The translations under genes and the position numbers were made by a program. Shown piece after piece: positions 4,315 through 56,194 of a DNA stretch of 64,000 nt; position 1 is the stretch's first letter, and every line of letters begins with the position of its first letter. The notes beneath the pieces were generated by a model that saw only the letters and a list, made by a program, of their open reading frames with translations, did no database searches and was not told the DNA's origin. The DNA comes from Antedon bifida. Taxonomy: Eukaryota; Echinodermata; Crinoidea; Comatulida; Antedonidae. The DNA is taken from positions 3,906,001-3,970,000 of the forward strand of contig OY727093.1 in assembly GCA_963402885.1 (NCBI GenBank), in the 5' to 3' direction.

Positions 4315-4422
4315 AACAACAAAAGTCAGCAAATATGACAGCGATTGAAGTACCTGAACATTTCTAACAAGATACTGTAAATAAAAAAATATGCACCAAA
4401 TGTCGTGACATACTCAGAAAAG
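4315..4422 (+). promoter_or_regulatory. K2P 5' leader with short upstream ORF
   Basis: A pyrimidine tract and CAG acceptor end at 4314, so this looks like the leader part of an exon that continues into the channel coding region. It contains a complete upstream ORF (ATG at 4335, stop ending at 4367, 10 codons) and a second, very short ATG frame (4391, then TGA). Upstream ORFs of this kind commonly reduce initiation at the main start. That effect here is inference. Confidence 0.4.
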
Positions 4423-7400: not shown

Positions 7401-10400
7401 GATCATACCTTTAGGGACCTACATGAAAAAAGTGAGTGAGTGTGCAATAATACCTTCCTTGAGAAAAAACAATACATGGCATGTGATACAAAATCAACCA
7501 ATAAAATGACAATTTGATACTGTATTATTATACTATGAAATACAGTAAAATAACTTGTCCTGGTATGACCTCATTGACCCTATAGTACTTTCTAAATTAC
7601 ATTTTTTTTTATTATTAGTATACAATGGAATTATAGAGTAAGAGACACTATATTTCCGGTATAAAATTTGTTACAATACAGTGAATATGACACATAATTT
7701 GAACAATATTCATAATTAATTAATCAAGATGCCTTTGTCCATACACTCAAGTTCAATAAATCTAATTCATTCCACCATAAACTGAAGACAACTAATTGTA
7801 ATTTGAATGCCGTTGGGTCCTGAAAGACAGATACAAGACGGTCCAATCAATAAATCTGACATATGATTGGACGTTTGTCATAATACCAAATGTAAACTAG
7901 AGAAGCTATCAAAAATTAATTATTGGATTCAATGAATATATTTTATCACTGCAATCAATATCACTATCTTGGAAACTACTGTATAGGCTGAGATTAGTAG
8001 AGTACATAAACAAATATTATGTATTTCTAGTCTAGTGAGATCCATATCCATGTTAGATGTGAGCGCTCTTTCTTATGACATCTAAACTGAATAGTTAGTT
8101 TGTTAGTGCTAAAATCCTGAATTTGACCTCATTTACATACATGACAGGTCACATGTTGTTGAATTTCCTGTCTTAAATTCATTATAAAAATGTCCTGCAG
8201 CACCACTTTTTAAGAAGGTTTACTTTAGATCCTCATTCTATTTTACTGCTGAGCAAAAATAAGTGGGGTTATTATCTATGTTAGCAAAGATTTATTTTAT
8301 CAATAGAAATTTTAAACCCCGGAGCTAAACCCTTTAAGAGTTAAAATGTATGTAATCTGGTTTTGAACTTGTCCACATCACCTCTAACAAGGTTTAAAGA
8401 TCTTTCCAGCCCTTCATATCTACAAATTTAGATGTCTCTATTCCTCTAGGGACTTGGACTAGATTTGAACCCATATACATACCAAGCACTTACCTGTTAG
8501 TGCCAGAATGTCAAGTATACTTATTTGTCAAGATTAATTTGACATGAATTTTTTAAATGTAAATATTTAAATGTAATTTTCAACCAAGATAATATTTGAA
8601 TTATGTATGGTATTAAATACAGTAAAGAAGAACGGGGAATTTTGATGAGATATTGGAAATAATAGTTTGCTTAAAGATGTATTGTCCCCAAAAACATGAA
8701 AAATGAAGATTAATAAAATCGGACTTTGAATATGCCATTTTGTAGTTTTAACAAAGTTAATCATTCCCGTAGAAAAAAAGCCCAGAAAAAATAATGTTTT
8801 CACTTATAAAATGACAAAATAAATGGTCCAATTCAACTAAAAACTCATTGGCTGGCAGCCAATTTGACTATTTTTTGCTTTAAATTACAGTTTTTTCCAG
8901 GTAAATGCATTTTTTTTATTCCAATTTTTGTTCAAAGTTGAAACTATTATGTGACAATAAAATGGCATTCAACAAAAAAATAATAATTTTTTAGGGGGAT
9001 AATATATCTTTAAGGTACCATATACTGTACAGTACACAATTATTCTATTGCAGTTACTGCAGTAAACTACATTATCTCCCTCTTTTAAACTGTACTGTAT
9101 ATTCAATTTTTTTTGTTAATCATATACACTTGTTAGTCACTGCCTCATAAACTTCTACATTCTAAATCACACGTTAGTGTAGTAACAAAAATCCAGTTAC
9201 TGCAGTAATGGCAGTAGAAAACATTTTTAAATGCCACTTTAAGATGACATTTAAAAATATGTAATTTTGTTAAATAAATTATTTAAATATAAACATTAAA
9301 GTAATGTTAACGCATGTGTCATATGATAAAGAAATAATAAATTATATCTGGAGATTAAAAGATACATGAATATTTAACATCGATTGAGTTTGAATTCTCA
9401 TTTGTTTAGATTACTAGACAATTTGACGTGATATCTTCATTTAATCAAAATATATTAAAATATATTTTTCAAGATTCATTTGTATAGCTCCAGGGAAAAT
9501 ATTTTTAAATGTACTTTAATGCTACTGTACATTCCAGCATGGCTTATGAAAAAAATTGTTAAATAAAAAGAGAGACTCTTTTGTTTGTTTTATCCAATAG
9601 AAAGTAATTTGCCAACAAGGATGGATAAACTACCGTCCTTTGAAAAAATGACGTGTTGTATTTTGATGAGTAACGTACAGTTACATGACTAGATTCCACA
9701 TAAAAAAAATTCAAATCTTATTACACAATTTTTCAAGCTGCAGTATTTTTTCACCTCCTACATATTTTAACAATGACATTTGCACAGAATGTTCATTTTG
9801 TTAAATTTATTGTATGTCTGAAGTCATCTATTTAAGATGTAGTGGCTTTGTATTATATAACCTAAAGTCTTTGATCAGTAGATGGTTTTTATGATTTCCG
9901 TCTTGCAAACAAATACACAAGTAGTAAATACCCAATATGAAATGCTGAACAAATCGTTATCTACTGTAATGTCTTTCATCCCGTACTCTAATTGTGCGTA
10001 TAATACCAGTAAATGAATAACTGTTGACTTTGCAATCTCTTCATAAGGTTCATCCCGTACACTATATCTCTATTTTGTTTTGTTTATTATGTATATTTAC
10101 TTAAGTATTGTTTGAGCAATGAAGTCTAACATGAATTTCTGAAACGACCCGAACAAATCTGAATCTAAAAAAACAGACACATAACTCGTCCTCGGCAGAG
10201 TTAATCATTTTAAATATTTCTGTTGTTTATTTTAGGTTATGGTCACATAGCACCAATGACGATACACGGGCAAGTTATTTGTATCGTGTACGCACTCATA
10301 GGAATACCGTTGATGTTGCTAGTTCTTACTAATGTTGGCAGGGTTCTAGCAAACACGGCAAGGCTACTTTTCAAAATGTATTCAAGTCAGTTGTGTAAAA

Positions 10401-12241
10401 AAGTTCGTTGTCAGGATAAACGAAGTTTGCAGAGGCGGGCAACAAAAAGAAAATTATCCTTGCAAAGTTTGTACATTTAATTACAGTTATTACTTTAGTA
10501 TAGTATAGGAGCTATAGCATAGAATTGAGTCAATATTTTTTTAAGGAGGCTATTGGAACAGTGGGCCTGTAAAATGATAAAATGAAGTGATTTAGCTTAA
10601 TAAATGTCCAAATGCTACACCATACCACCTTATTGTTATGCATTTATTAAATAAATAACCAAATCAAGATTGATCAACAGTTGGTTAATGAATTTTTGTT
10701 TTCTGTAATAATATTAAATCATTTCTAATAATATTACTTTTTGGGTTTCAGGAAAACACTCAAAGAAACTTGAAAAGAAAAACTCAAGCAAGCGGAAGTC
10801 ACTGAAGCGCGAGCCAACATTCAAAGTGCCACCAGAAGAAAAAACTGACAGCATTGAATTATCGAAAGCTGCCACAATCACATATAGCTCTAAAATCTTT
10901 CAAGACTCTGAGATATTTGCCACATTATATTCTGAATGTAATGAAACCGAGGACCGAAAATGGTTGGATCGTGTTGATAGCGCAAACGATTCAACTTTAC
11001 GAGATGTGTCGTCTACGAACTTATCATGTGCATCTGAGAATATTTTTGATGCAAAGAGCCAATCATTGAACAATAACTTGCAAGAGGACGACACAAGTAG
11101 CGTGTTCGACGGAAACGACACAGACTGTGCGGAAATTCAGGAGAAGACGAGCATAACCAGACAAGAATCTCCTGACGGAACTCCTACTACTTTTGCATCT
11201 GTTGAAGACAGTTTCTTACACTCCTTACAACCAGGTTCTTGTAGCTCTCTTGCATTACCGGTCAAAAAAGAACCTTTGTTAGTCAAACGAAGATGTTCTT
11301 GCGTTGACTTGAGACAATTTGACCGGTCTGAATCAATGGAAGAAAAACCGAAAAAAGAAGATAAGAAACTAACAAAAGATACCATCCATTACAGCCTACG
11401 CAAAAATGAGCATGTTGATCGCAAGTTTTACATGAACGCACAAGGTAAAAAAATGACTCACTCAGAATCAATGCCTAACATTCAGCAAAAACAATCAGTA
11501 AGAAGTCAGAATAACAATAAATATAATTCTCTTAGAAATAAACGCAAACAAAGATTACATTCTGGTCTTGCACACCCGACGTTGGCTTCACTAATGAAGC
11601 CGATTGACATGAAGATTCAAAACTCGGCAACCGCGATTCGCCTTGCAACATATGGCAAAATCAAGGGTAGTAGTCGGGAAGACTTAACATCTGGCATATC
11701 GGAAGTATCTGATGAAGATACGCGAATGTTAGACTGGACGGAATCTGTTCACAGTCGAAAGCAACTATTATCGTCATCGAGTAACGCAAGTTTAGAAACA
11801 ATAAAGCGTAAAAAACGAAAACCAAGTAAGAAAAAGAACAAACCGGCAGATGATGAATTGTCAGATATAGCTGAAATTGACTCGGACGATAGCGGTAGTA
11901 ATATGAAACGTACAATAACAGAAGCCGATATTCCAATTACGCCAGTTTTAATTTTTTTCTTCAGTTATGTAATTTTAGGGGCTGTTATGTTTTATTGTTT
12001 GGAAAGCGGTTGGAACCTTCCAAACGCAATTTACTTTTGTTTCATTACGTTAACCACGATAGGATTTGGTGATTACGTACCTGATAGTTCACTTTACAGC
12101 CTTATTGCTTGTTGTATATATACAATGGTTGGTATGGCGATAACGTCTATGTGTATCGCATTAATTATGAAGAAGTTTGTACTACAGGTTAAAATAATAG
12201 GACGAAAAGTTGGTATTCTAAAAGATGAAATGGACGTTTGA
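4423..12241 (+). CDS. Two-pore-domain (K2P) potassium channel, TRESK/TWK-like layout
   Basis: Exons 4423-4831, 10236-10466 and 10752-12241 join in phase to 709 residues. This family passes background K+ leak current across the plasma membrane; two pore loops per subunit mean the channel works as a dimer. TM1 is about residues 29-52. An extracellular cap follows, with three N-glycosylation sequons (N79, N85, N108) and no cysteine. Filter 1 is TTIGYG (134-139), TM2 about 149-175, TM3 about 610-627, filter 2 TTIGFGD (648-654) and TM4 about 663-687. The first intron splits the glycine codon of filter 1 in phase 1, a position shared by many K2P genes. The start is the ATG at 4423; the frame is open a few codons upstream but has no ATG there. 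The TM2-TM3 loop is about 430 residues, rich in Ser and Lys, with RRCSC (393-397) and HSESMP (450-455), which resemble PKA and 14-3-3 sites. The long loop recalls KCNK18/TRESK, but orthology is not established. The exon 2 donor (GTTTGT) is weak and was chosen because it alone keeps phase. Confidence 0.9.
8671..9013. mobile_element. MITE with TTAAAGATGTATTGTCCCC termini
   Basis: The left end reads TTAAAGATGTATTGTCCCC. The right end is its degenerate reverse complement, ending ATATCTTTAA, with a TTAA at each border. Related copies lie at 20797-21066, 22083-22424 and 46825-48118. TTAA borders suggest a piggyBac- or Kolobok-like source; that assignment is inference. No coding capacity is visible. 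Confidence 0.7.
9050..9212. mobile_element. Short element bounded by GTTACTGCAGTAA
   Basis: The near-palindrome GTTACTGCAGTAA occurs at both ends, about 150 bp apart. A further single copy lies near 44463-44480, with similar neighbouring words (CTCTT, AACTTCTACA). It is probably a small non-autonomous element. The borders are approximate. Confidence 0.45.
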
Positions 12242-20011: not shown

Positions 20012-23000
20012 CTAGCATAGCGGTTTGATGTGGGAACTGTATATATATTGTAGCCCCAATCTTGTGAATTTCTCATCTAATTCAGACATGTCTTCATATT
20101 CAAACATCTCCAAATCAGTCAATTCACTAAAAGAATAAAATAGTAAGATTTTACAAAATAAAAAGTTATTCGTTGGACAGATCGTTTGTCTATTATCTAT
20201 GTACTTTACTCATTAAACTTGTAAGAGGGTCGGAGTTCAAGACACCTTCAGTGCCATCATGTTTGTTTGTTTTGGGGAAGATGCTAGAGAGGGATACATG
20301 ATATAATATATACACATTATTAACAGTTAGTTCAGGACTAAAGATAGTTCCCTTTCATGAACATGGGCCTATATGTTTTGTTAAATCCAAAGGCAATTTA
20401 CCAAAAAAAATGACAATGCTGTAGGTATCAGTGGCAAACAAAATAAGCAAAAAGCTATAACAAAACGATAGAGTAAAACAGCCAGAAAAAATTAGCAGAA
20501 AAAAACTAGCCCTTCTTATATTGTTCATTTTTTCCAATATTGAATTGTTATTCATAGGATATCACATCTTAAGTTTTGCTTATAATGGTGCCCGTTTCCA
20601 TCAATCAATTAAATATAAATGAATGTGCACATGATTATTAAATAAATGTAGCATGATACTCATAGTTTTGACTATTGTTGTAATAAATGCATCATCTTTT
20701 ATCTGTAGGCCTAAGACAATATAATTTATCACAATCTGTAAGTAAAGTTTTATAATGATTTATTTTGTTTGTATTATTATTTTTCCGTTGATTTTTGTCC
20801 CCCTGAAATAATATTATTTAATATGAACAAAAATTGAAAAAAATATTTATTTACCTGAAATGTAATTTAATGCAAAAAATATTTAAATTGACTGGTTTTG
20901 GTTGAATTTGACTATTTCTTTTGTCTTTTTATAAGTAAAAACATTAGTATTATTTTACGGAATTGATTAATATTAATCAATTATTAATAACTGCAAAATG
21001 GCCTATTTAAAGTTTTTTTTATTAATCTTCACTTTTCATGTTTTTTGGAGGACAATACATCTTTAAATTATTATTACACATGACGCACAAACGATTACTA
21101 TTGCCATAGGCAATGATGATAATGAAAAAATGTATACCTATCAATATAATTTATCACAATATATGTAAATTGTTTATAAATGGTTATATTTATATATCAT
21201 CATTTATTTTCATTAATTTATTATTATATTCAATATTCTTGTACTTTCGTTTTCATTAATTTTCTTGTTTAATATTATTTATCTTAGTTATTATTATTAT
21301 TTATAGGCTACTTGTAAATAATAACTGTACTATATTTTTATTATTATGATATATTAGTATGATTAATTAATTATATGTAATAACAATACAGTACATGTAT
21401 TTTATACCGTCATGAATGCCTGGTCCTTCTAATGGGACATTTACGCTATAAGCCAATGCACACAAAAGACGCCAGTGTTATTACGAAACAGAACTGGGCA
21501 CACTTGGAATCACCTCCTAGCCTGCTCATCATTAGCTGATTTTTACTACAGCTGTGTGAATCTGTAGAGGGCCTAATACTAAAACAAAAGACAGCCCTCC
21601 TATAACATTTGAACTTCAATTAATCATATTAGTTCAAGTACCATGTCTTAACCATGGATGAATTACCCAAACAATTAGACATGATACATGGCCTTTGACC
21701 TAACATTACACTGTTGCTCGACATTTAGTTCACATCATACATTCTCCAAGACTATTGCACATCTGCTGTTTAGTACATTGACATTTTAACAACCTTTAAT
21801 TACTAAACACAATCTCGCATTGTGTGGGATGGCCTCCTGCATTCAAAATGTTTATGAAATGCATGACTGCAAGATATACTGTTAGTACTGTAAATCATTG
21901 TTTGGGAAGAATTTGGACCTAGGAATCTTAAGCTCTGTCTACACTATCAAACTAGTTTGACAAAAAAAGTTTAAATGAGTCCCAAAATAGTATTGATATG
22001 ATGTCATCGTGCCCATATTTGGGCACATTGCATTTTTTTGTCACACAGTTTCTACACTATCAAACTACGGTAGTGATATGCCTTAAAGATGTATTGTCCC
22101 CCTGAAAAAATAATTCTTCAAACATTTTTTTTTAAATATTTCATTTTAATGTAACAGAATAGTTATCCACTTTGACCAAAAATTGGATCTAAAAAAAATG
22201 TATTTACCTGAAAAAAATGTAATTTAAAGCAAAAAATGGTCAAATTGGCTGCCAGCCAATAGATTTTGGTTGAATTTAACCATTTATTTTGTCATTTTAT
22301 AAGTGAAAACATTATTTTTTTTCATTTTTTTTTCTATGGAAGTGATTACTACAAAATAAAATATTCAAAGTCTGATTTAATTAATCTTCATTTTTCATGT
22401 TTTTGGGGGACAATACATCTTTAATATGGAGGTGATATGATATCATCATGCCCATAATATGAGCGCATCACACTTTTTGTCACATAAAGTTTGATAGTGT
22501 AGACAGAGCTTAAGACAAACATTTTTAAAAACCAAGCTACATCACAAAATTTAAATTCTTATATAGCCAAAAGCACATTTATGGAGATATTAGACACTTT
22601 GTTTTAGAATATTTGATGTTGTTCCAATATGTATGAAACCAAAAAAGATTACCACAAGGGAGATATGCATAAATTGTAGATTATTCTTGATACACCTGTC
22701 AAACCAATGAATATAACCCCTGAAGAATGAATAGGATTTGAAGGAAATTCTCAATTAATCAAACATTACAATGTAAATTGTTATGATGATGAATGTGAAA
22801 AAAAAAAGATGTTAGTAGTGTTCGATTTTCAAGTCCACTGGCTAATGGCCAGTAATCAATCAATCAATCAATCAGATTTATATAGCGCCAGTATCCATAA
22901 TAATGTTCAGAGGCGCTTGACAAAGTTAAGCAGGAAATGCCTCTGTGTAAAAATGGGTTTTTAGTCGTGTTTTAAAAGTGTTGATGTTTTCAGATGTCTT

Positions 23001-25351
23001 TATGTCGATTGGCAGTTTATTCCACAAAATGGGTGCTGCACAGGAAGCACGATGGCCATATGTCTGAAGTTTCCATTTAGGAACATGAAGGAGAAGTTTA
23101 TTAGATGAACGCAGTGAACGAGACGAAGTGTAAAGAACAAGAAGATCAGCAATATACTGAGGTGCAAGTCCATTTAGAGCTTTGTATGTAATGAGAAGCA
23201 GTAAATCCTGTGAAAGGTCTAAAATTCTCCCAAGTACCAATACTGGTTTACCATTTACAAATACTTTTTCGTTGTGTACTTACAGTAAATCGTTTGAAGG
23301 CAATTCAACCAAAACTTTCATCATTCGTTCTTTACAACTTTTTCCATGCGAGTCCACATCTACGTTTTGAGTTTTCTAAAAATTCCTGAAATTAAATCCG
23401 GGTTAAGATTAATAAATATTAATTGAAATTCCATGGGGCCTGGCTATCACCTTTAGGGGGATGATGATGATGTTCAATTGTGAGTTTCATAGCTTACAGT
23501 ATTAATACTAGGGAAATTGTAAAATTAGCTACTAGTATACAGTAGATTTCATTTATAAGGAGATGGAAAGTATGTATAAATATCACTGAAAAATGAAAAA
23601 AATCTTGCCTTAACATTTGTTTGGCTACCATTAAGTAATAAAAATATCAAGTTTTTCACAAAGAATATTCCACCTCTGACTGACAGGTCGAGTGCCCACT
23701 TACAAAGCTTCTTACAATACTTGGTTCGAGCCCGCATGTGATCAAGTTGACATAGTACTGTACACTCTAATAAAAACAAATATTTATTAGTTCATTATTC
23801 AAGAAAACATTGTATTAGTAATTAAAAGTGGATCATAATGTTATGGTTCACACTTTTTTTTATCAAAGCAAAGCCTAGGGAATCTATGAAGTGGTCTAGG
23901 TCTACACTATCAAACTAGTTTGACAAAAAAAAGTGCGATGTACCCAAATATATGGTAGTGATATGACATCATCGTGTCAATATATAGCAACAAATATGGA
24001 AGTAATATGACATTATCGTGTCCATATATGAGCACATGACATTTTGTTGTCACATAAAGTTTGATAGTGTAGACAGAGCATTAATTTCAAGGTTCCAATG
24101 CAACATAGATATACAATGCATTGCAAGTAATTTGATCAATCCTGTTGCTATAAATCATCCAAACTGTCAGAACCAAAAAGGGAAAACAAACAGGCATTTG
24201 GATACTTCATTTATACATGTCAAGTCCCACACTTCTGGCATGAGGCTCACGCTTTTTTGACCAGCCTCAAGCTCTCACACCCCGCACTAAAATTCTCACG
24301 CTTTTTCACCAATCTCTCTTTCACCAATATTTTCTTAAAAGGCTTGAAAACATTTCGTCCAAATTTAGGAGGAAAAAATGGTTAGGGCCGGAGTTGGGGG
24401 TGTAATAATTTTGATATCTTAAGCCAGCAGCAATGGCAAACTTGACATGAACTGTATGATACTTGTCTGTTATTGGAGATGTGCACTAATATATTGTGTG
24501 AAAATATTAAAATTAATAATTTAAATAAATTACCAGGCTGAGAGCTTGAACCAGCGATCTCCACAGATGCTGCTCCTGTCTTTATGTACTTTCCAACATT
24601 TTCTTGCACCCACATTACCTGATCCATTATCATAGGTCGTGACCTCAAGTCTTCAGAATACACCAACAAGTCGTGTTTCAAAGAATCAAGGAATTTGCGA
24701 TTGAGTTCAGTTGATGAAAGGGAAATCTCAGGCAAACTATTTGGGTAATCTTGAAGCAGAGTAAATGTTATTTGTAGGTTTACAGGGCAAACATGATGAT
24801 TGATTTCTTCTAATTTTATTTGAATTCTAAACAACTTGTTTGGTGAATCTGAAATTTGATAAACATTTATTTAATATATACATACTCGAGTCGTTGTTCT
24901 TTTCTAATTTATTTAAGATTTTTGGCTTATTTATTTAGGAGCTACTGTGGTATTAATAATAAATAGGCCTAGGCTTAGATTAGTTAGGCAGGCCCTCTAG
25001 TAGTAGTTATTAAGTAGGTCTCTAACTATAGGCCTAGCCTACTTGGCACTGTCCACTACGGTGTAGGCACTACGGTGTAGGCAGAGTCCCAGTAGTAGGT
25101 AAAATAGGCCTGGGCCTGGCCCAGCAGTAGTAGTAGTGATTACCAGTCCAGGCTGGGCCTAGCTACTAGGGGCCTACTAGGCCTAGGCTAGGCCTAGTAG
25201 GCCAGACTGAAGAATAGAAAGAAAGAAAGTAGGGCCTAGCTAGGCTAAAATGATTCGTACTTAAATCTGACAACTCGGTAAATTCTCCATCTCCACTGAA
25301 AATTGCCTTTAATGCTTCTAATTCATGAGAAATATCGTAGTTGTCAATCAT
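20012..25351 (-). CDS. RWDD3: RWD domain-containing protein 3 (RSUME)
   Basis: Five exons, read from high to low coordinate: 25351-25261, 24848-24534, 23757-23609, 23375-23284, 20126-20012. They join in phase to 253 residues, close to the roughly 267 of the human protein. Vertebrate RWDD3 (RSUME) binds UBC9 and promotes SUMO conjugation. Residues about 1-115 form the RWD fold, with the YPNSLPEISL stretch typical of the family. Exon 3 carries LDHMRARTKY and exon 4 KTQNVDVDSHGKSCKERM, both strongly recalling the C-terminal half of RWDD3. Exon 5 ends with an acidic segment and the stop. The start is the ATG at 25351; an E2F-like site lies about 40 bp upstream. Intron 3 begins GC, not GT (AAG then GCAAGA), a recognised minor class that keeps the phase exact. 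Intron 4 (about 3.2 kb) holds a LINE tail and several MITEs. Intron 1 has a GGCCTAG-rich palindromic tract (about 24960-25230). Confidence 0.9.
20405..20530. repeat. Short dispersed repeat shared with 63841-63960
   Basis: ATGACAATGCTGTAGGTATC, then AGTGGC, AAATAAGCA and AAACAGCCAGAAAAAA occur in the same order near 63848-63940. The two stretches are diverged copies of one unnamed repeat. The open frame on the minus strand here is part of it and is not supported as a gene. Confidence 0.5.
20797..21066. mobile_element. MITE of the TTAAAGATGTATTGTCCCC family, left end lost
   Basis: The right end GGACAATACATCTTTAAA is clear. The left side begins inside the family at TTGTCCCCCTGAAATAA. The internal phrase TTTTGGTTGAATTTGAC, with TTTTATAAGT downstream, is shared with the copy at 22083-22424. 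It lies just inside intron 4 of RWDD3. Confidence 0.55.
21928..22515. mobile_element. MITE with GCTCTGTCTACACTATCAAA termini, containing a second MITE
   Basis: The left end is TTAAGCTCTGTCTACACTAT and the right end ATAGTGTAGACAGAGCTTAA. TTAA is present at both outer borders and may be the target duplication. GATATGATGTCATCGTGCCC-type sequence appears in both halves in inverted order. A complete copy of the other MITE family (22083-22424) is inserted in the middle, so this one is older. Confidence 0.75.
22083..22424. mobile_element. MITE (TTAAAGATGTATTGTCCCC) nested in another MITE
   Basis: Near-perfect termini, TTAAAGATGTATTGTCCCC and GGGGACAATACATCTTTAA, about 340 bp apart, with TTAA at each border. 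It interrupts the MITE at 21928-22515 and is the best-preserved member of this family in the window. Confidence 0.8.
22853..23240 (-). mobile_element. 3' fragment of a non-LTR (LINE) retrotransposon
   Basis: The minus strand encodes the last about 100 residues of a reverse-transcriptase ORF. It has the typical LLLLITYKALNGLAPQYI and ILWNKLPIDI stretches, which lie downstream of the RT domain in CR1/L2/Jockey-like LINEs. After the stop comes GGCGCTATATAAA and then a TGAT tetranucleotide run (22853-22873 on the plus strand), a tail seen in CR1/L2-type LINEs. The fragment is 5'-truncated and sits in intron 4 of RWDD3, in the same orientation as the gene. It is not a host gene. Confidence 0.8.
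23898..24080. mobile_element. MITE of the GCTCTGTCTACAC family
   Basis: GTCTACACTATCAAACTAG at the left and AGTTTGATAGTGTAGACAG at the right, with the shared GTAGTGATATGACATCATCG interior. It lies in intron 2 of RWDD3, just upstream of exon 3 on the plus map. Confidence 0.7.
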
Positions 25352-44060: not shown

Positions 44061-45348
44061 TGCGATGATAATTTATATACAAATTAAGCTAAATAAATTA
44101 CAAAGCAAAACAACAATAACTACTAAATTGATTTTACAGAATGCTAAATATATCCAATTTTGGTGATTAATTTTCACAAAGGAAATACGTAGAATGGTCA
44201 TAACTTTATGGCAACTGATAATAATCTTTATTTTTTTCACCTCAATTTAGTTAAACTTAATTGGTATGACGCATAACTGTTATCTAACAGATTAGAGGTA
44301 CAACTTTATTTCATGATACACACAGTAATTACAGTGCGTTTATTGTTTTCTATCAAAGTGATGGTCGAAAATGGTACAATCATTATTAATAATTGGATGC
44401 TCTAAATAAAACAATAATAATGTTTTATGATTATATAGGGATCATCAAACTTTAAATTCTATTACAGTTACTGCAGTAACTGTTGGTTTACTCTTGCTTA
44501 AATTTTTATTAGGATAATCATGCACACAATACAATACAATGACTCCTTGATAAACTTCTACACTAAATAAAACTAAAATCTTTACTTATACATTTTTGCA
44601 TTAAAACATGTCATTTTTTTTTTATTGAACCATGTTTCATGAGGGTAGCCCATCCAGCAAAAATGAAACTATTGAAGTAGAAAATTACATACAGCACTGC
44701 ACTATTATGATGACGAATATTATACATCTGTACGTAATATATTCGTCAATGGCGCGCATGTTATCAGATTAGTGACAATTTATAAAGAAGCACGTGAACG
44801 TTGAATAGATTAGCTGATCACTGGTGTGAGCCCGACTGCTGTACCATATCAGCAACACTACAACTTCACATGACCTAGACTAAGTAACAGGTGGATAGAT
44901 ACCTTGAACTACTCAATCTCACAAATAATAACATTAAAATTATATGACAAATTCATATTAGTAAAAGTATAGAATTGGAGTTGAAGACTGATAGCATCAA
45001 GAAATTGAGAAAGAACATATAGGCCTATAGTTTTGATAATAGTATTATCAATGGCAATTTGAAACTATGTAACAGTAATTTAATTTTGTGTATAGATATA
45101 TTGTAACAATTAGTTTTATTGCGAGATAATGTCTTTCATTATCATTCCTTGTTAATTTTTCTTATCTGAATTAAAGTTAAAGTTTAAGTATCAAAGGTAC
45201 AGTACAGTATGTACAGTTGATAAGGCCAACAGAGTTTGTCTCTCTTGTTTGCAGAACAAATTAGTAAAGTAATTCAATTCAATAAAATTTATTATCCCAA
45301 ACCCCAAGGAAATTCATTTGGTTGTGGTAATAAAAATATTCATAAATA

Positions 45349-45739
45349 CGGTGGCCCACAACTGTCACGCACAGTATATAAATCATATTCACACAATTAA
45401 AGAAGAATCACACAATTAAAGAAGGAATCACACAATTAAAGAAGAAATTGCACAATTAAAGAAGAAATCGCATATAAACAAAAGAAAGCATGAAAATATA
45501 AAACGAAATGCACAAATAAAGAAGAAACGCGCAATTAAAGAAGAGCTTCGCACAATTAAAGAAGTCCGCAACAAATTCGAAAGCTCCTCGCACAATTAAA
45601 GAAGTCCGCAACAAATTCGAAAGCTCCTCGCACAATTAAAGAAGTCCGCAACAAAATCAAAAGCTCCTCGCACAATTAAAGAAGTCCGCAACAAATTCGA
45701 AAGTACCTCGCACAATTAAAGAAGTCCGCAACAAATTCA
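45349..45739 (+). repeat. Left terminal inverted repeat with subterminal arrays
   Basis: After CGGTGGCCCACAACTGTCAC comes a TATATAAATC box (about 45374). Then come about eleven copies of CACAATTAAAGAAG, first every 20 bp, then as four full 40-bp units (starts 45549, 45589, 45629, 45669) plus a partial one. The 40-bp unit adds TCCGCAACAAATTCGAAAGC. The right TIR has the same order in reverse. Such dense repeats are typical transposase-binding sites; that role is inference. Confidence 0.9.
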
Positions 45740-45805
45740 ATTCCTCACTACTGCAAACGCACAAATTCAATTCCTCACCGCAGCAGACGCACGTGTTCAA
45801 CTGAG

Positions 45806-48800
45806 ATGATGTTTTTTTGTCAAGCTTGTGGTAAACATAGGCCTATTCAGCACAAATTTTGTGCCAATTGTGGGACCAGTATTTTTGGTAAGTTTTATTA
45901 AGTAATATTTATTTGAGGGATATGTTCCAGTGGGTTGCCTTTTTACTAGGTGGTAGGTAGGCCCTAATGCCGGGGGAAGGTAGGTTTGCATGGCATGGAT
46001 GGATCATGGCTCCATGCATGGATCTAAACGGGCTAGAAGATAAGCCTGTTGCTATAAAAGCCCAATACAGACCTACCATATACAGGTACGTCTCCCTCCA
46101 ATTAAAGACCCCTCTAATCAGGGAGGTATAAGCTCCCTGCTCTAATTAAAAACTCCCTCCAATTAAAGATAGGGATACCGAGAGCTGACTCCATTTTCAT
46201 TACCACGATTAAACAGCGCGCACGTTACTACGCGCGCAATGTCATTGACGCGGTGTTTTTTTTACTTTGGTAAACACTTTTTATTAGGTAATTATTTTGA
46301 AAATAAATTAATTATGAAAATATCCTTTTGAGTAAATATTTATTTACCTATTATTCTATAAGATCAAGTATTTTTTATTTCCATTTCATTCAACCAAAAA
46401 TGTGAATATAAGTGGTTAAAAAAGATTATTAATATCGCCTAGCGCCTATAGCTTTTACTACGAAACCCTCGGAAGGCTCAATGACCTACCATTTTCAACC
46501 TTATTTTTTTAGTTCTCTAGAGATATCGAAGTCGCATATTAAGGGGACACTTTCCTTTCAAACGAGGGGATATAGGGCCTAATTAATATTTTAACACACG
46601 ACCAACCCCTATTTATATTCCATTCTGGTTATATATATACATATACATGTACATATACATATTCATGTAATACAAAAAGGATCTCGGTGTCAAGTCTTTG
46701 ACTTTCCAGTCCGACATTGTCCAATTAAATGTAAAATGTTATGACATTTTTCATTGGCCAGGCCTAATTGTTACCCCACTTCGTATCACCAACATTGTCA
46801 ATTTTGGCCCTAATTAGTAATATATTAAAGATGTATAGTCCCTTGAAACAGTACAAATAAAGATCAATCAATTTCAATTTTGAATAGACCATAAATATAG
46901 TTATATGAAAGTTATACACTTTACGTCTAAAAATCGAGCGAAAAAACAAACAGTTTACATAAATACGGGTAAATTAGTGTGATTATATTTCGTCCTAATA
47001 ATGCTACTCCGTAAACCGTTAAAACAGAGATTTTTTAAAAAATGTAAAAACAATGCATTACTATAGAGAATCGCTGTACAAAATAAACGCGTAGAGCCAG
47101 CCAGAGCCGTTAAATTGAATGGATTAAAGCTATTTTTTTTTGGTTTAAAATCATCAAAATAATGTTATTATTGTTTTAACAAAAACCTTTAAACAAATTG
47201 ATTCAATCCATTCAAAGTCGCAACTCTTTATGGCTCTGGGTTTGTTGATGTACTACGCATGCGCATGTACGTGTGAACAGATTGTATAATTAGGGCGTTA
47301 TAACGCCCTAATTACGGCGTTATAATGCCCTAATACGGCGTTATAACGCCGTATTTTTATAAAATAATTTTTTTCTTTGGCGGAAATCAGCCACCGTACG
47401 GATCACTGGCCACGTTCGCCGACAATGAAGAAATACGTTTCCGTGATCGCTTGATGAATGTTGACCAACCATAGGCCTATAAATGGATTTAAAAGGATGG
47501 AATTCTAAAATAGGCATTACTTCCTCAGCCACATATGATCATTATGTGGCCCTTCATCATCCCACTGCTAAAACAGACCGGGACCAACTTGCCCAAGTTA
47601 TTTTCTCGACGGTATAACATTTCCCTGGCTGCAGTCGAGGCCTCATCCTCCTAGCCTAAGCCTAGGGTCGGATACCCGCCCTAACTTATTTCAACCTTCT
47701 TTCTATTTGTATTGTATAGGCCAAGGCATATGGAATTCAATTTAAAGTAACTATAGGCCTATTGTGTTTAAGTGTTCGATTGATTTATCAGAGTATTATA
47801 CCAGGCCTACTAGGAGTTTATACGAGTCGCATTCAAGTTAAGTTTTCGCCGTCGACGATATCGGCAGCAAAAGTGTTGTGTTTGCATAATTCATGAGCAA
47901 CGCATTGCAAGTCGGAATATGTTTTACTTAAATTCCGCTTGAGAAACGCTGTCTGTCAGACAGTTATTTTTTTTAGAAATTAGTCTGTATCTCTTTTTTT
48001 CAAGCTATTTTTTGGTGAAAGTTAATAACTATTATGATATTTCAAAACGGCAAATTTCATTTCAAAATCTATTTTTTACCATTTTTAAAATTTATTCAAA
48101 GGGACAATACATCTTTAAGGTTGGTTCAAAACTGCCGCAACGTACGCAACGCAACGTAAGGACTGCTCTTCCGACAATATCGTTACAAAGTACATACGGT
48201 TCCCACTTGGGTCTCATGCGAACGGAACGCAGTCATTTCCGCGGGAACATACCTCTTGCGTGCACTTGATACCTTGCGTCTCGTCATTGCGTTGTGTCCT
48301 AGTGGGGACCAAGCTTTATGATGATTGAAATTCCCTTGTCCCTTTGAAAAATGACTTGCACAGGATTTCAAATTGCAACGCAGCACCCTGATTCACAATT
48401 TCCCAATATCATCATCTTTCCATTGTTTGTATGTCATTTCAAAAACTTGCTCATACAATTGTTTTTTTTTATTTTAATCTTAAATGTATACTGTATGCCT
48501 ACTTTGAAATTGCATGAAAAGTATTGTTACAGTATATTAATTAATTAACTCTAATGATGGTTACTCATTTTCAATTAAAATAAAAGAAGAAGAATCTATG
48601 TTTATCATTTTCACTTTGTTGATTTGTTTTTTCAAGAACACGCTAAGTCTCCCATGGGATATCCCTATTAAGGGGACACTATTGGTGTGGTTGAGTTTTT
48701 GATGTTCATGGAAATTGATCCAGGCTAGTTATTCATATCATAGACTTTACTGCCTTACTGCAATCGCTGTATAAATCACCTACGGTACTACTTCATAACA

Positions 48801-50938
48801 TTTGTTGTATTATTATGTAATGTTTTTTTGCAGATCTTGACAAGCCAACTACTAGTACAACACCAGATATACCACCATCATCAAGTTTCATGCCTACAGG
48901 TAATTAGACAAAAAATAGGATCAGGCATACTGTAAGGCTATTGAAGAAGACGACGACGACATTAAAAAAAATGCGAAACCTCACTATTAGTAGTTAAAAC
49001 ACTGTTACTTAATTTTGAATTACTGTAGCCTACCCGTAACTGGTTTTAAATTTTTATTTTTTAGGTAGTGGCCCAATTAAATCTTTTGAATCATACAGAA
49101 AAGGTAAAGGCAGAGAGTGGAAAACAAGAGTGACCAAGAAAAAAGATGATAAAGATAGAGACCAAGATGTTGTTATCACGCTTGGTCTTCTTGAATGGTC
49201 AGCGCAAGGATTATGCCTAAAACAAAAGCGTGGTCAACGATTGGCATTGAGAGTGAGCACAAAGGATTCTTACAAGACAATCCTTGACAAAGCAGAGAAG
49301 AAATGGAAAGACTACAATTGTGATTCATACACTGAAACAGAGTACATTCTTGCATACAGTAATGGTAAATGTGCACAGTTTATGCCAGGGACATTTCAGT
49401 TTTTTGACTTGAAGAAGTACAGAGAAGAGGTGGGAAAGGAATTCAAGCGTATAGTGTTCTATCTGTGCACTCTGGAAGACCATCTCTTGGCAGAAAAGAA
49501 GGATATTGATAGTGAACACGATTCTGAACCTCTCACTAAGCAGATGAGAGTATTTGATGAATTTGATATCACTACCTTTGATGATAATGCATTTACAGCA
49601 GAGTCATTGCTAAGCAACGTACAACCACAACATACAGCCACTGAGAACAATCACAGCTCTACAGCAATATCCACAGAAACCACAAATCCACCAGTAGCAA
49701 CAAACGAGCAAGTGATAAATACATCATGCACAGAAGTTGAAGAATTTGACAGGAAAGAATTGTCATTCAAAGAGAAACTGGAAAACATTGGAAAGGCATT
49801 TCAAGACAGTGGTGATCCGGAAATTCTATCTGTACGTCGAAGGAAGCTCTGGCAGGACACTGCTCAAAAACTTGGTCGTCTTTATGCGAATTGCATAAAA
49901 CCATTCAGTGTGTCATTCATTGGAGAAGCTGGTATTGATGCCGGGGGCCCGAAAAGAGAATTCTTTTCTTTACTTTTTGATGACTGCAAAAAGCATCTCT
50001 TCGCTACTGGTGATGGTAGCAGTTTCACCTTACTCCATGATGTTGAGAAGATGAGAAAGGGGGAATTTCAGCTACTTGGTAACATGATTTCTATTGCACT
50101 GCTGTATGAATGTGCAGGGCCACGTTGCTTCACCCCCTCATTGACTGCATGCTTACTGAATGGTCCAGAAATTCGACCAACCATTCAGGAGATTCCCGAT
50201 TTCGAAATTCAGGAGAGATTAAGATCTTTAATGGCAGCAAAAGATGATGAGGAATTTCAGGGTATGATGTCAACCTTTGAAGAAAGGTTTTCCTTTGGTG
50301 TGACCCGGTTCAAGGTTCCCTTTTCTGAAAGGGAAGATATGACCAGAAATATTGCCCAGCATTTTTGTATTTCCGCTTGCAATGAAGAAATACAAGAGGT
50401 TCGAAGAGGAATGGAGGTTATCGGGGTGCTTAAGGTTTTAGAAGAGCATTATGAGGAAAGTAAACATGAGTTCCTTCTGTCAGAAATTCAGAAAGCTTCA
50501 AGTATTCTCGGTATATTTACCAGCATAGAATACACACATGTGAAAGAAGGGGATTCGCTTGATAGGGGGAAAAGAGATTTGGAAGAAGACATATTTTATA
50601 ACTTCACAAACTGCATGGAGACTCTACAGCACGAGGGTACAATGGAATTACCCCTTATCATCCTTGAAGATGATGGCTCTGAGAGGGAAATTAACACTGT
50701 AATTACTTTGCAGGAAGTAACAAGATTTGTCACAGGATCAAAATATGTAACGGCGTCATTAGAGGGCAAAGGCACGATTTGCTTCGACCACTTGAAAAGA
50801 AGTGGCACACTCATGGTCAACACATGCAACATTGTATTGACTTTTCCTGTTTTGGAGAAATACTATGGATCTCCAGATGTTTTTATTAAGAGTTTCTTTG
50901 AAGATATGCGTTCAGATTCTGGCTTTGGTATGGTATAG
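45806..50938 (+). CDS. Transposon-encoded zinc-ribbon HECT E3 ubiquitin ligase
   Basis: Exons 45806-45887, 48834-48899 and 49065-50938 join in phase to 673 residues. Exon 1, starting directly inside the left TIR, encodes a zinc ribbon (Cys 5, 8, 19, 22; CX2CX10CX2C). Exon 2 is a short Ser/Thr/Pro linker. Exon 3 has an N-terminal domain of unknown function (about 85-190), an acidic linker and a HECT domain (about 300-673). Visible HECT hallmarks are GEAGIDAGGPKREFF (from 336) and VNTCNIVLTFP, whose Cys637 aligns with the thioester-forming cysteine. HECT ligases take ubiquitin from an E2 onto this cysteine, then pass it to a substrate. The domain recalls G2E3-like HECT proteins found in many copies in animal genomes. 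Two ATGs open exon 1 (45806, 45809); the first is used. A poly(A) signal (AATAAA) is at 51368. The role in transposition is unknown. Confidence 0.88.
46086..46172. repeat. CTCCCTCCAATTAAAGA repeat (inverted copy at 54045-54122)
   Basis: TACAGGTACGTCTCCCTCCA, then ATTAAAGACC, occurs here. Its reverse complement (GGTCTTTAATTGGAGGGAGA and CCTGTA) lies at about 54100-54125. Both copies are inside the mobile element at mirrored places, so they may belong to its subterminal structure or to a separate short repeat family. Confidence 0.4.
46825..48118. mobile_element. 1.3-kb element of the TTAAAGATGTATTGTCCCC family
   Basis: The left end TTAAAGATGTATAGTCCC and right end GGGACAATACATCTTTAA have TTAA at each border, 1.29 kb apart. 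The interior is longer than in the 340-bp copies and includes hairpins at 47291-47352. It lies in intron 1 of the HECT gene. It could be one long member or two copies that lost their facing ends. Confidence 0.5.
47291..47352. repeat. Perfect palindromes GGGCGTTATAACGCCC and GGCGTTATAACGCC
   Basis: TAGGGCGTTATAACGCCCTA (47291-47310) is a perfect 20-bp palindrome. ACGGCGTTATAACGCCGT (47335-47352) is a perfect 18-bp one. A partly matching block (ACGGCGTTATAATGCCCT) lies between them. Confidence 0.8.
48655..48690. repeat. GGGGACAC-type fragment
   Basis: GGATATCCCTATTAAGGGGA, then CACTATTGG. A fragment only, in intron 1 of the HECT gene. Confidence 0.35.
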
Positions 50939-51367
50939 CATGTTACATAACATTTGTTACACATCAACACATTTATTTTACATCATATAGTATTAACATA
51001 GTATAACATGTGATAATTAATAACAATCATTACATATCATAACCATTTTGATGATTATTATTACATATAACAGTTTTTATCGTATTCAAACTAAATTAAG
51101 CTTGAGTCGTTCTGTGACAAAACGACGTAACTTGGAATCAGTTTCTGAGAAAATGTATACAGTCATGTGATAATCAACATTTCAAAATTTAAATATAAGT
51201 ATAAGTAGTAAAGTAAAGTGATATGTCCTTTTTACAGTAACAGACAGTTATTACACTACCGTATTAGAAAAACATTGTAAAAATAATTGGAGGCCAATTT
51301 CACTGCTAAATTTATGACTACAAAATTGCTTCTAAAGTGTTGTCCTCTATAGTCAGTCAGTAGGCCT

Positions 51368-51373
51368 AATAAA
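51368..51373 (+). terminator. Probable poly(A) signal of the HECT gene
   Basis: AATAAA, 430 bp after the HECT stop codon. Chosen as the first clear canonical hexamer noted downstream. Confidence 0.4.
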
Positions 51374-51460
51374 GAGTTTTGTTTTCATTTATTACGTATA
51401 CAACGATTTCCCAACGTGTCTGTCTTTATGATGTGCTTCCATTTTCTGTTTCTTTAGGCT

Positions 51461-51608
51461 AAAGGCGGGTTTCCATCGGGCGCGGTAACGGAGCGCGGAG
51501 CGGAAAACCTAATTGGAACATAAAATGAGAGCGAATTGTGTTCCAATGGATTAGAATAGCTTTTTCCGCTCCGCGTTCCGTTACCGCGTCCAATGGAAAC
51601 CTGCCTTT
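51461..51608. mobile_element. 148-bp GC-rich palindromic MITE
   Basis: AAAGGCGGGTTTCCATCGGG at the left, and CCAATGGAAACCTGCCTTT at the right. Arms of about 50 bp (GCGCGGTAACGGAGCGCGGA in the left arm) pair almost fully. It is one of three adjacent foldback elements between the two transposon genes. Confidence 0.8.
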
Positions 51609-51609
51609 C

Positions 51610-51800
51610 GGGAGGTTTAGCTACCAGTACGTGGTACGCGTAGAAAATGTGCTGACGTCATTGATTTTGCGCACATCTCAATCAATTGTTACGCATGGAA
51701 CATTTACGCGTAGATTCCAGGCATTCCTGAGTAAAAAGCGCAACAAATTCTACCCGTAGGCCTCCCCTACACATACCTAGCAACGGGTAGCTAACCTCCC
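51610..51800. mobile_element. 190-bp palindromic MITE
   Basis: GGGAGGTTTAGCTACC at the left is mirrored by GGGTAGCTAACCTCCC at the right. It also contains paired TACGCGTAGAA/TTCTACCCGTA-type blocks. It abuts the preceding MITE with almost no spacer. Confidence 0.7.
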
Positions 51801-51830
51801 TATTGACAAAGCCTAACGTATGTCTCGCAT

Positions 51831-52346
51831 AAAGGCCTGTTTATGACTACAACGATAACGATCGACGATAAAAAGATTAAAGCTATTTTTCCTATAGAAA
51901 ATATAAGAAGTAGTTTTTATACCAGCATGATTCAATAACGATTTATTGTGTACACGATAAAAAAAATTTCCACAAATCAATTTAATTATATGACGTCACA
52001 ATCATGGAAAAACGATGAAATCGTAGTAGTACGTACAGACAATTTTATCGTTTTTTCATGAATATGACGTCACTTTATTCGATTTGTGAAAGTATTTTTG
52101 TATCGTATACACGATGGAGAGAGGCATTATATACCAATAGATAAAAGCTTTGGTCCTCTCTCCTTCATCTTTTTTTTTTCTTTGTAATGTATTATACCAT
52201 ATGGACAATTGTCTGAAATAAAAGTTGAATTGATAGATCGTTATTGAATCGTGCTAGTATGAAAAATTCTCTTATTTATTATATTTTCTATAGGAACAAT
52301 TGCTTTTTATCGTCGATCGTTATCGCTGTAGTATAAACAGGCCTTT
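51831..52346. mobile_element. 516-bp MITE with long TIRs
   Basis: AAAGGCCTGTTTATGACTAC, then AACGATAACGATCGACGATA at the left; the right end is its reverse complement (TATCGTCGATCGTTATCG, then GTATAAACAGGCCTTT). Pairing continues inward through TTTCCTATAGAAAATATAA and CAATAACGAT. No ORF is visible. Confidence 0.8.
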
Positions 52347-52624
52347 AGATACCAGGTTTTCTTTGCAGTGATTCTGCACATGTAAACAAGCAAAACAGTG
52401 ACTACTGGTTCTCCTCAGGTCTTATAAACATAATTGAGTGCAATTTTGTTTTATGTGATTAGAGTTAAAGGGGCCTTCAACAGCCGGAATTAGATGACTT
52501 TTCAGGAGAGTGGCGGACGTTAATTTGTTGATACATAGGTGGTATTCAACATTGGTTATATGATAAATGAATGGTCCATCGGTTCTTTGAAAATCCTACA
52601 ATTTATGAACAATCTATTTCCGTA

Positions 52625-52630
52625 TTTATT
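52625..52630 (-). terminator. Probable poly(A) signal of the recombinase gene
   Basis: TTTATT on the plus strand (AATAAA on the minus strand), about 70 bp past the recombinase stop codon. Confidence 0.5.
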
Positions 52631-52697
52631 ATTAATAGTTTAGAAAATAAATAAAGCTGGTGCTCAGTGTTCATCATTATTGATATGTCGCATGAGG

Positions 52698-54763
52698 TCA
52701 ATTAATCCCTACTTCAGAAATATGCAACAGGGTCTGATATCGGTTGAGGGCTTCACTCCAATTGTTAGAACGAGGGATCACCGCAGAGTTTTGTACCATT
52801 GTGAAGTAATCTAGGTATTCGTTGGACGTTTCTGTCAAGATAACATGTTGACTAACATATTCCAATTCAGGCCTTTCAACTTGCAGTAGAAGGTTTCTTT
52901 CACCACCGTGGATATCCGGTAAAAAATACAATGAATTTGGCCGCCCGTGCACTGTATTATGTCGAGATCTTCTTATGAAATGAGTATTCCAATGTTCCTT
53001 TACGTTGTCTAGGTCTCTTTGCAGCAGAGAAGAGAAACAGAACCACAAGCATTCTTTACTTATTATTGATGACATGTCAATGATACGCCTAAATTCAAGA
53101 TCTGCAAAAAAGGTTCTCCACCATGACGCATACTGCCTTGCAAAGAAAGACCACCACCCCTCTATACGTTGATTTCTTGGCGATGGTACATATCTATGAG
53201 ACATATCATTATCACGAAAGTAGCACTGCATTGCCGCTGCAATACCATTTTCTGTACCTAGGTCCGTTACTAGTTCAACTGGGCATCCACCAAGCTCTTT
53301 GACGCTTTTAAGATACATAGCAGCGATGTTGTCAGGAGATTTATTCGAATCCGTGACATTGAGCCACAATACACGCCTGCTGAAGCCATCGATGGAGCCA
53401 TGAATAGGGAAACCCCAGGGCTTCAGCTTGTCATAGCCGTCTATGTGCCATGCATAGTTTGGCCCAGGGTTTGTATACTGTCTTCGACGTAGTCGATGTC
53501 GGCGCCGCAAAATCGTTCCTGCTGGATCAATTTCTTTCAGCAATGCCTCCACCACTGAACGGGGACAACGAAGTCCTTCCATTTCTAAGGTGTGCCAGAT
53601 AGAACGGTAACCACTCAAACTTCCTGGGCCATTGATAATTTCGACGATTCGCTGCCGTATGTTAGTTAATTTGGTGCGAAATTCATCAGTGTCTCTATTG
53701 CAACGTCTTCGTAGCCCAAGCTGGCGAAGTCGCCTAAGAAGTGTACTGTAGCTCATTGTTAAACCGTGATACCGTTCAAGGAATGCAAGTATTTCGTTGT
53801 ATTCGTAACCGCTGTTGAAGTAATATGAGATTGCTTCCTCCTCATTGAAATTGTTTTCAGTTTCTTCAGTGTCGACTTCATTCTGTGGGTCAATAAGCTG
53901 GAGCTGAAGATCTGTAATGACCAAAAACAATCATAATAAGGTATAATTAAATAAAAGATATACATACTGTACGTTACATCATTCCACAAAAACAAAAGAC
54001 CACTTTTCTGTTACACCAATGGATACCAAAGAGGCAGTCCTTAATAAAGTGATTCTAATTAGAGACTAAAGACCGCTAAAACCCTGGTCCCTAAAGTGGT
54101 CTTTAATTGGAGGGAGACCTGTATTAACTAAGTAAATAGTTGTCCCAGATTTTACAACATCTAGTAGCATGAACACTCAGCCTGAAGTGAACCTGAAATA
54201 CAGCTGAATTAAAATAAAAACTGTAATTTATTCAGTGACTCTACAACATATTCATTACTATTCTATAAATTGTTTTGCTTTAATTATTTGAATTTATATT
54301 ACTATCACCTATTAAAATCAACATTGTTCAAGCAAAGAACCGATTTTAACTAGTCCAGCTATTATTAGTACTTGTATTGCAATTACAGTACAGTAAAATA
54401 GCTATTTTCGTCAACAGAGGGCGCTATTTCTGATGTATTTCCTTATGTTCAAATAATATTTTTTGCAGCTAAAATTTCACTTTCTCTTTATGTTTTGGAA
54501 GTGGGATCAACTGAATTATTAATTAGATACATATCAACTATACATTTACATTGTATCATCCAATCTTCCTAAGACTAAGAGGAGATCACAAAATCCACTT
54601 TCTAGGCCTCTTTTTCAGGCTCATGCCCCACAGTCTATATAGGGCCTAAGGCCTACGCACGGTTTGCCTATCTACAAAGCTAGAAAATGTACCCACCGTG
54701 TCCACAATGATGGCAAAAATGAGAATCTTCTGACAGGGATGTCCCACAGATGTCACAATACAT
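52698..54763 (-). CDS. IS3/integrase-like DDE recombinase with N-terminal zinc ribbon
   Basis: Exon 1, 54763-54697 (donor GTGGGT), and exon 2, 53911-52698, join in phase 1 to 426 residues. This is the likely transposase of the 9.9-kb element. Exon 1 encodes a zinc ribbon (Cys 3, 6, 17, 20; CX2CX10CX2C). After an acidic linker come a helix-turn-helix-like segment (about 55-92), an IS3-type region (GYRSIWHTLEMEGL, about 123-136), a basic stretch and the RNase H-fold integrase core. Candidate catalytic residues are D180 (WHIDGYD), D239 (VTDLGTENG) and E273 (QRIEGWW), with about 58 and 33 residues between them, close to integrase/IS3 spacing. The ORF is intact. The start lies about 120 bp inside the right TIR, mirroring the HECT gene. 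Homologues annotated only as integrase core domain proteins exist in many animals; the IS3EU label is inference. Confidence 0.88.
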
Positions 54764-54879
54764 TTTCACTACGACCAACGAAGTTCAAGTCCATCAAATC
54801 GCATCATCTTGACTGGCTGCTCACACACACCACCTGTCATCCATGAAAGCTTACACCAAAGGACCAGGCCACGTCGAGT

Positions 54880-55225
54880 TACTTTCGAATTTGTTGCGGA
54901 CTACTGTACTTTAATTGTGCGAGGTACTTTCGAATTTGTTGCGGACTTCTTTAATTGTGCGAGGAGCTTTTGATTAATTTTGTTGCGGACTTCTTTAATT
55001 GTGCGAGGAGCTTTCGAATTTGTTCCGGACTTCTTTAATTGTGCGAGGAGCTTTCGAATTTGTTGCGGACTTCTTTAATTGTGCGAAGCCCATCTTTAAT
55101 TGCGCGTTTCTTCTTTATTTGTGCAATTTCTTCTTTAATTGTGTGATTCCTTCTTTAATTGTGTGATCCTTCTTTAATTGTGTGAATATGATTTATATAG
55201 TGTGCGTGACAGTTGTGGGCCACCG
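54880..55225 (-). repeat. Right terminal inverted repeat
   Basis: Reverse complement of the left TIR. The outermost 25 bases are identical, then one G/C difference, then about 30 more identical bases. CTTCTTTAATTGTG motifs and five 40-bp-type units follow. It is slightly shorter than the left arm, lacking a segment near 45460-45500. The high identity suggests a fairly recent insertion. Confidence 0.9.
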
Positions 55226-56194
55226 TAAACATTTAAAAAGTACACAAAAGGCAAGCACAACATTCATAATAAAAATTAAGAAAAACAAATCTGACCAACT
55301 AATACTGTTTTCAATTGATGATGTGCAACATACAATTTTAATTTTTTGCCAATGATTACAACTTAAATGTTTCTAAAACTAAATGTATTCAGAACAACAT
55401 ATAATTTGAAAGTTTACATGGTGAAAGTTTACTGTGTTTAAAGTCAGCTTTAATTACCAATCAAATATTCACAAATTAACAACAAAACAACTCATTTCAT
55501 TTGAAAATAATAACAATTATTGAGACAAATTAACAAATGTAGTTTTGTTTTTACAGTTAATTTGAGCGGGACGAGTGGGTGTAACTATTTTATTACTTGA
55601 ATATATATAAAAACAAACCACAGTGTAATTCTTTCCATACATTTCTGTATCAAACATAATTCCTTGCGGTTTACTCCGAGACATTATTCTTATATTATAC
55701 TCGTTTCAAACTAAAAACATGCTTTATCATTCCTTCTCAATGTTCCCAAGATTAAGTTATCGACAGAGAGCAAATGAATCAAATATTTTAATTTCCTCAA
55801 TATGTAGAAAAGGATAGGGTATGTGCTACTGATAGACGCCCTATCTCAAATCACTCTGAAACAAGTTTACTAATAATTTAATATACATACTGTATTCATA
55901 TGATTGCAATATATAACAAAATTCATAATTAATTTTTCTCCGTAAGTTATTTTTTTTATCAAACTAGGTAATCTATATGCACATTCTAAATCATAATTTA
56001 TTGACAGGCTCATATACTAAGATTTTTTTATTTGAACTTGAAAAAATGAATATTTTAACAAGTTGTATATACAATATAAATCTATAGACATTTGCATAAT
56101 TTATTGGAAGTCTACTCAAGAAGAAATTCAATTCTTGTTATGTGCAAACCTTGAAAAAGTTAATGGAACGAAAAATTACTTGAAAACAGTTAAG

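Follow-up and report, generated by a model that had tools for sequence, protein, structure and literature searches.

A DNA transposon, probably of the IS3EU/GingerRoot kind, with a predicted HECT ubiquitin ligase gene in the crinoid Antedon bifida

The DDE transposases bind to subterminal repeats of their elements and cleave the element ends, which they then join to the target. Among the described elements, IS3EU has TA..TA ends and usually 6-bp target duplications (PMC10045372). Some transposons are also known to carry OTU, Ulp1 and C19 enzymes. The Ginger study proposed a role for ubiquitin in transposition, with the enzymes that strip ubiquitin or SUMO used to argue that the pathway may take part (PMC2836005). 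No description of a DNA transposon that contains a HECT gene was found among the papers listed, outside of which lie Repbase and most subscription papers. Here, we describe a transposon at positions 45347-55227 of a window of 64,000 nucleotides from the crinoid Antedon bifida (contig OY727093.1, positions 3,906,001 to 3,970,000), which contains one gene for an integrase-like DDE transposase and another for a HECT protein. By its features, the element is best explained as a cut-and-paste DNA transposon of the IS3EU/GingerRoot kind that has two genes and looks intact. We are highly confident that the HECT gene and the rest of the element are inherited together as one transposon, and the HECT protein is probably an active ligase that serves the element. 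The explanation that we favour overall, with moderate confidence, is that the HECT protein acts on the transposition complex of such a transposon, while its action at the transposon ends via a zinc ribbon is put forward tentatively.

The terminal inverted repeats (TIRs) start to match at TACGGTGGCCC and run inward. They are identical in 326 of the 332 aligned columns (98.2%), and the alignment has another 69 gap columns. The matching ends, TACGG..CCGTA, extend the limits of the original prediction by 2 bp outward. The bulk of both TIRs consists of tandem units around CACAATTAAAGAAG of about 20 bp and, further in, 40 bp, the copies of which were counted with one pattern (Table 1). The TA..TA termini of IS3EU/GingerRoot are present, and the TA could also be target sequence. 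The HECT and DDE genes are convergent, and each begins at most ~130 bp inward of its TIR. Both gene structures were predicted from the sequence alone, and their three introns all have GT..AG ends. The largest open frame has 632 codons, and the longest one in 200 mononucleotide shuffles of the element had 196. Between the TIRs, a third frame with at least 110 codons was not found. These results confirm the original prediction that long TIRs enclose exactly two intact, convergent, spliced genes.

The spliced integrase has 426 amino acids and contains the complete triad (D180, D239, E273), in agreement with the previous reading of the recombinase as a DDE enzyme. Its IS3-like nature is likewise borne out by NCBIfam matches to IS481 (7.9e-7, 28.9 of 224 bits) and IS3 (1.7e-6, 27.5 of 160 bits), both far under the equivalog cut-offs. 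The HHCC integrase N-terminal family was not among the 15 matches listed, and the first 93 residues match CCCC zinc ribbons. Neither a single-sequence nor a profile search identified a relative of the integrase among solved structures, while the fold search did find relatives. Scans of viral_contigs with the integrase, the HECT alignment and the terminal 25 bp gave no relative, and the search of genome_contigs gave a single locus, L001, whose 3.8-kb contig is assigned in its record to a sponge symbiont. The match to L001 is fragmentary (43% identity over residues 124-253), and no HECT-like frame was noticed by inspection among its 21 frames, on which no profile was run. The GC content by codon position in the two large exons was little informative.

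The HECT protein has 673 amino acids, spliced from three exons. Its N-lobe is recognised by sequence and the whole HECT fold, with N-lobe and C-lobe, by structure comparison, the alignments shown to HECT E3 ligases having 11-20% identity. Cys637 aligns with the Cys in the HTC motif of UBE3A, in a stretch that is weak on its own. The catalytic Cys, the Thr-Phe-Pro that comes after it and the Phe at position -4 are invariant in all ten aligned rows, and the nine homologues are just 25-62% identical to the window protein. The position of the Cys at 637 agrees with the original prediction, which gave a complete HECT domain. The order of predicted strands and helices in the N-terminal region of exon 3 resembles, with low confidence, a beta-grasp fold. 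Among the relatives, P0128 from EukProt is predicted to have 850 amino acids with a differing N-terminal part and is probably a fused gene model. The distant relative P0131 (~25% identity) has kept both the N-terminal region and the Cys, and its sequence suggests a second subfamily of these HECT proteins.

To learn about the pairing of the two genes in other genomes, we compared the longest contig given for each protein match, and the same size in bp for a HECT and an integrase relative was taken as a sign of pairing. A contig size is carried by 13 of the 17 HECT rows, giving 12 distinct sizes, which were compared with the 120 rows listed of the 1712 integrase matches. Three of the 12 sizes recur among the integrase matches listed, with ~0.02 expected if log-uniform lengths are assumed: 1550588 bp (HECT P0122, integrase P0002), 6118 bp (P0123, P0004) and 3844 bp (P0126, P0005). 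If the contigs are the same, the two genes of the short pairs lie within 6.1 and 3.8 kb. The pair P0126/P0005 is the nearest of the three to the window for both proteins (68% for the integrase, 62% for HECT), and the other two pairs are 88% identical to each other in the integrase and 81% in HECT, so that the order of divergence agrees between the proteins. Because these two pairs are close kin, the pairing represents two further lineages rather than three. The original prediction that the two genes form one transposition module thus holds in part: they look co-inherited, and the ligase may have a role in transposition.

Both genes begin with a short first exon of their own that encodes a CxxC..CxxC zinc ribbon and ends in phase 1, a feature unmentioned in the original prediction, and in both the next exon starts with ATCTT, which gives Asp-Leu. 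The integrase ribbon lies above the Pfam cut-off (Zn_ribbon_3, 1.4e-6; Zn_Ribbon_1, 5.9e-6), and the HECT ribbon matches DZR (1.2e-4) and Zn_Ribbon_1 (5.9e-4), both under the curated cut-off. An N-terminal ribbon of like form is present in five of the 137 fetched proteins, namely the integrases P0080, P0083 and P0114 and the HECT proteins P0121 and P0129. Many of the others are, judging from their sources, probably single open frames of unspliced DNA, in which it would be invisible. Homology of the two ribbons in the window is likely but not proven.

In the mechanism that we propose, the integrase would bind the repeated units of the TIRs, then cut the ends and join them to the target, and the repeats beside both gene starts would also allow self-regulation. 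The HECT protein could reach the same ends, or the integrase, if its ribbon binds the repeats or the integrase. Its substrate there would belong to the transposition complex and would most likely be either the integrase or a host factor that is bound to the ends. The possible substrates include the integrase itself and host repair or silencing proteins, and ubiquitination may set the level of the transposase, the disassembly of the complex or repair. For the integrase as substrate, a parallel is the unfoldase-driven disassembly of the Mu transpososome.

A number of observations weigh against this explanation. The flanks of the element showed no perfect target duplication of 3-9 bp. A 6-bp duplication matches at two of six positions with the TA..TA ends and at five of six (TAAATA/TAAACA) with CGG..CCG ends; the comparison took in 16 combinations (two end choices and eight lengths), and a five-of-six match is reached by random local 6-mers in 1.5% of draws. 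The lack of a perfect duplication framing the whole element is consistent with a chance nesting of two unrelated elements or genes between TIRs owned by only one of them, as are the fragments of other repeats in intron 1 and the intergenic space, and a weak inverted pair (31 nt, 71%; 51067-51097, 54197-54227) that brackets integrase exon 2 alone. However, integrase exon 1 lies outside this pair, which is not stronger than others found in AT-rich sequence. The symmetrical gene starts just inside the TIRs and the recurrence of the gene pair on equal-size contigs also argue against chance nesting, which we consider extremely unlikely.

Further points of this kind concern the relatives. At the same cut-off, and with the ~8000 best candidates scored per search, single-sequence searches identified 1712 integrase relatives vs 11 HECT relatives, and the HECT profile 17. 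With an integrase excess of ~100:1, many integrase elements may therefore be without a ligase. The 3844-bp size occurs in two integrase rows, P0005 and P0045, and TIRs around both genes elsewhere are unseen because the contigs were matched on size alone. The closest HECT relatives (P0132, P0133, P0134 and P0136; 73-81% identity, partial frames, contigs of 2699157, 2008108 and 1859 bp) sit on different contigs from the closest integrase among the matches listed (P0003, 87%, 1609078 bp), with no evident pairing and no evident origin in one genome. Because of the counts and the unpaired closest relatives, the HECT gene may be confined to a sublineage. HECT identity is lower than integrase identity in six of six pair comparisons, and this lower conservation may account for part of its fewer relatives. 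Transposons capture genes, and the scarcity of HECT relatives would also fit a captured host gene that is carried as a passenger without a role in transposition. The pairing at matching divergence in two further lineages, the conserved HECT active site and the start of both first exons so near the TIRs speak against a passenger, which is very unlikely. Chance nesting and recent capture are thus both disfavoured.

The sequence and structure scores of the proteins are also weak in places. The Pfam HECT match of the window protein reaches 18.5 bits vs a cut-off of 23.9, the HECT model matches only two of the five HECT homologues scanned, and the match of the C-lobe sequence by itself is not significant. 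The structure model of the HECT protein is of middling confidence (pLDDT 59.7), and Foldseek gave weak matches for the integrase model, with a best value of 3.1e-4. The weak Pfam score, the middling model and the presence of NTC rather than HTC at the active site would be consistent with a HECT fold that has no ligase activity and is retained for binding or regulation. However, the residues invariant in all ten rows, and the HTC found in P0124 and P0125, make this improbable. The likeness of the two ribbons could be convergent, since zinc ribbons of such type are common. A protein that works for the element away from its ends, as a counter-defence that removes host silencing or restriction factors, is rather unlikely but the most probable of the alternatives. 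It agrees with a Cys kept in such divergent homologues, and the faster divergence of HECT than of the integrase is expected if the protein tracks host targets. However, this divergence has other causes too, no host target is known, and the zinc-ribbon first exon common to the ligase and the integrase would be left unexplained.

Table 1. Features of the transposon in window coordinates.
Feature	Position	Strand	Description
Left TIR	45347..45738	+	11 copies of CACAATTAAAGAAG-type unit, spacing ~20 then 40 bp
Right TIR	54887..55227	-	8 copies of CACAATTAAAGAAG-type unit
Candidate left target-duplication copy (TAAATA)	45343..45348	.	5/6 vs right copy; unproven
Candidate right target-duplication copy (TAAACA)	55226..55231	.	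Unproven
HECT exon 1	45806..45887	+	Start codon (second ATG 45809), zinc ribbon CxxC..CxxC, phase 1 end
HECT exon 2 (linker)	48834..48899	+	
HECT exon 3	49065..50938	+	N-terminal region, linker, HECT domain with Cys637, -4 Phe, stop
Integrase exon 1	54697..54763	-	Start codon, zinc ribbon, phase 1 end
Integrase exon 2	52698..53911	-	HTH_21-like region (under cut-off), RNase-H-fold DDE core (rva_4), D180/D239/E273
Inner inverted repeat, left copy	46090..46116	+	Within intron 1 of HECT gene
Inner inverted repeat, right copy	54092..54118	-	Within intron 1 of integrase gene

The inner inverted repeat in both first introns raised the tentative idea of a longer ancestral TIR that covered both first exons, although the intervening stretch aligns in short runs only. 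Between the two genes, at 51846-52332, there are three nested inverted-repeat pairs (97%, 88% and 84%), which by their sequence resemble a small non-autonomous element that has inserted into the transposon. A 47-bp inverted repeat close to the HECT 3' end (51461-51608; 91% complementary, arms 54 bp apart) is possibly another small nested element. Two pieces of HECT intron 1 (46825-46914 and 47994-48120) are similar to other parts of the window (8671-8759 and 22081-22197; 72-73% identity), and the intron therefore seems to hold dispersed repeats. Outside the transposon, the window contains ion-channel frames at 4381-4890 and 10718-12241 (PF07885; 7.7e-16 for the second, the first under the cut-off), which we take to be exons of a two-pore-domain potassium channel gene, and on the minus strand an RWD-domain frame at 24382-24870 (PF05773, 9.2e-13), probably a host gene exon.

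Some of the HECT and integrase-core genes in animal genome annotations may, as these results suggest, belong to transposons. G2E3 is among the proteins matched by unclassified candidate repeats in a study of Cottus fish (PMC5638112). The original prediction extended this, on the condition that the pairing is general, to the many G2E3-like HECT and integrase-core genes of animals, which is not supported by the 11-17 HECT relatives vs 1712 integrase relatives. P0137 (zgc:112970, Pygocentrus) is the only vertebrate-named of the 17 HECT rows, and it matches over ~112 HECT residues. A transposon enzyme that adds ubiquitin would give a direct handle on the role of the pathway in transposition, because one Cys mutation separates the roles.

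The element resembles IS3EU/GingerRoot in its IS3/IS481-related DDE transposase without the HHCC motif, its TA..TA ends and its eukaryotic host (PMC10045372). It differs in the HECT gene, since section 3.3 of that description does not name a HECT ligase as a second gene and its main text contains no HECT- or ubiquitin- word (PMC10045372), and in that the candidate 6-bp duplication is imperfect and appears only with CGG..CCG ends. In the Kolobok lineages (KolX, KolobokD, E, H and P), too, one transposon has both a DDD/E transposase and an accessory protein specific to the lineage, but these lineages belong to another superfamily and the accessories described are nucleases, a helicase or KolX rather than a ubiquitin ligase (PMC9587614). 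The HECT protein shares the N-lobe sequence, the whole fold, the catalytic Cys and the -4 Phe with UBE3A/E6AP, HUWE1 and UBR5, but differs from them in its N-terminal zinc ribbon, its own N-terminal region and its location in a transposon. In Ginger1, an integrase-like transposase is likewise allied with an enzyme of the ubiquitin/SUMO pathway (PMC2836005). However, as described there, the OTU and Ulp1 domains remove ubiquitin or SUMO and are placed inside a transposase with an H2C2 zinc finger and a GPY/F motif, whereas the enzyme here is encoded by a separate gene and is predicted to add ubiquitin (PMC2836005). We tentatively suggest that the element may represent an animal DNA transposon lineage with its own E3 ligase, targeted to the transposition complex by a ribbon module also present on the integrase, and that the predicted HECT ligase may be the ubiquitin-adding counterpart of the OTU and Ulp1 domains of Ginger1.
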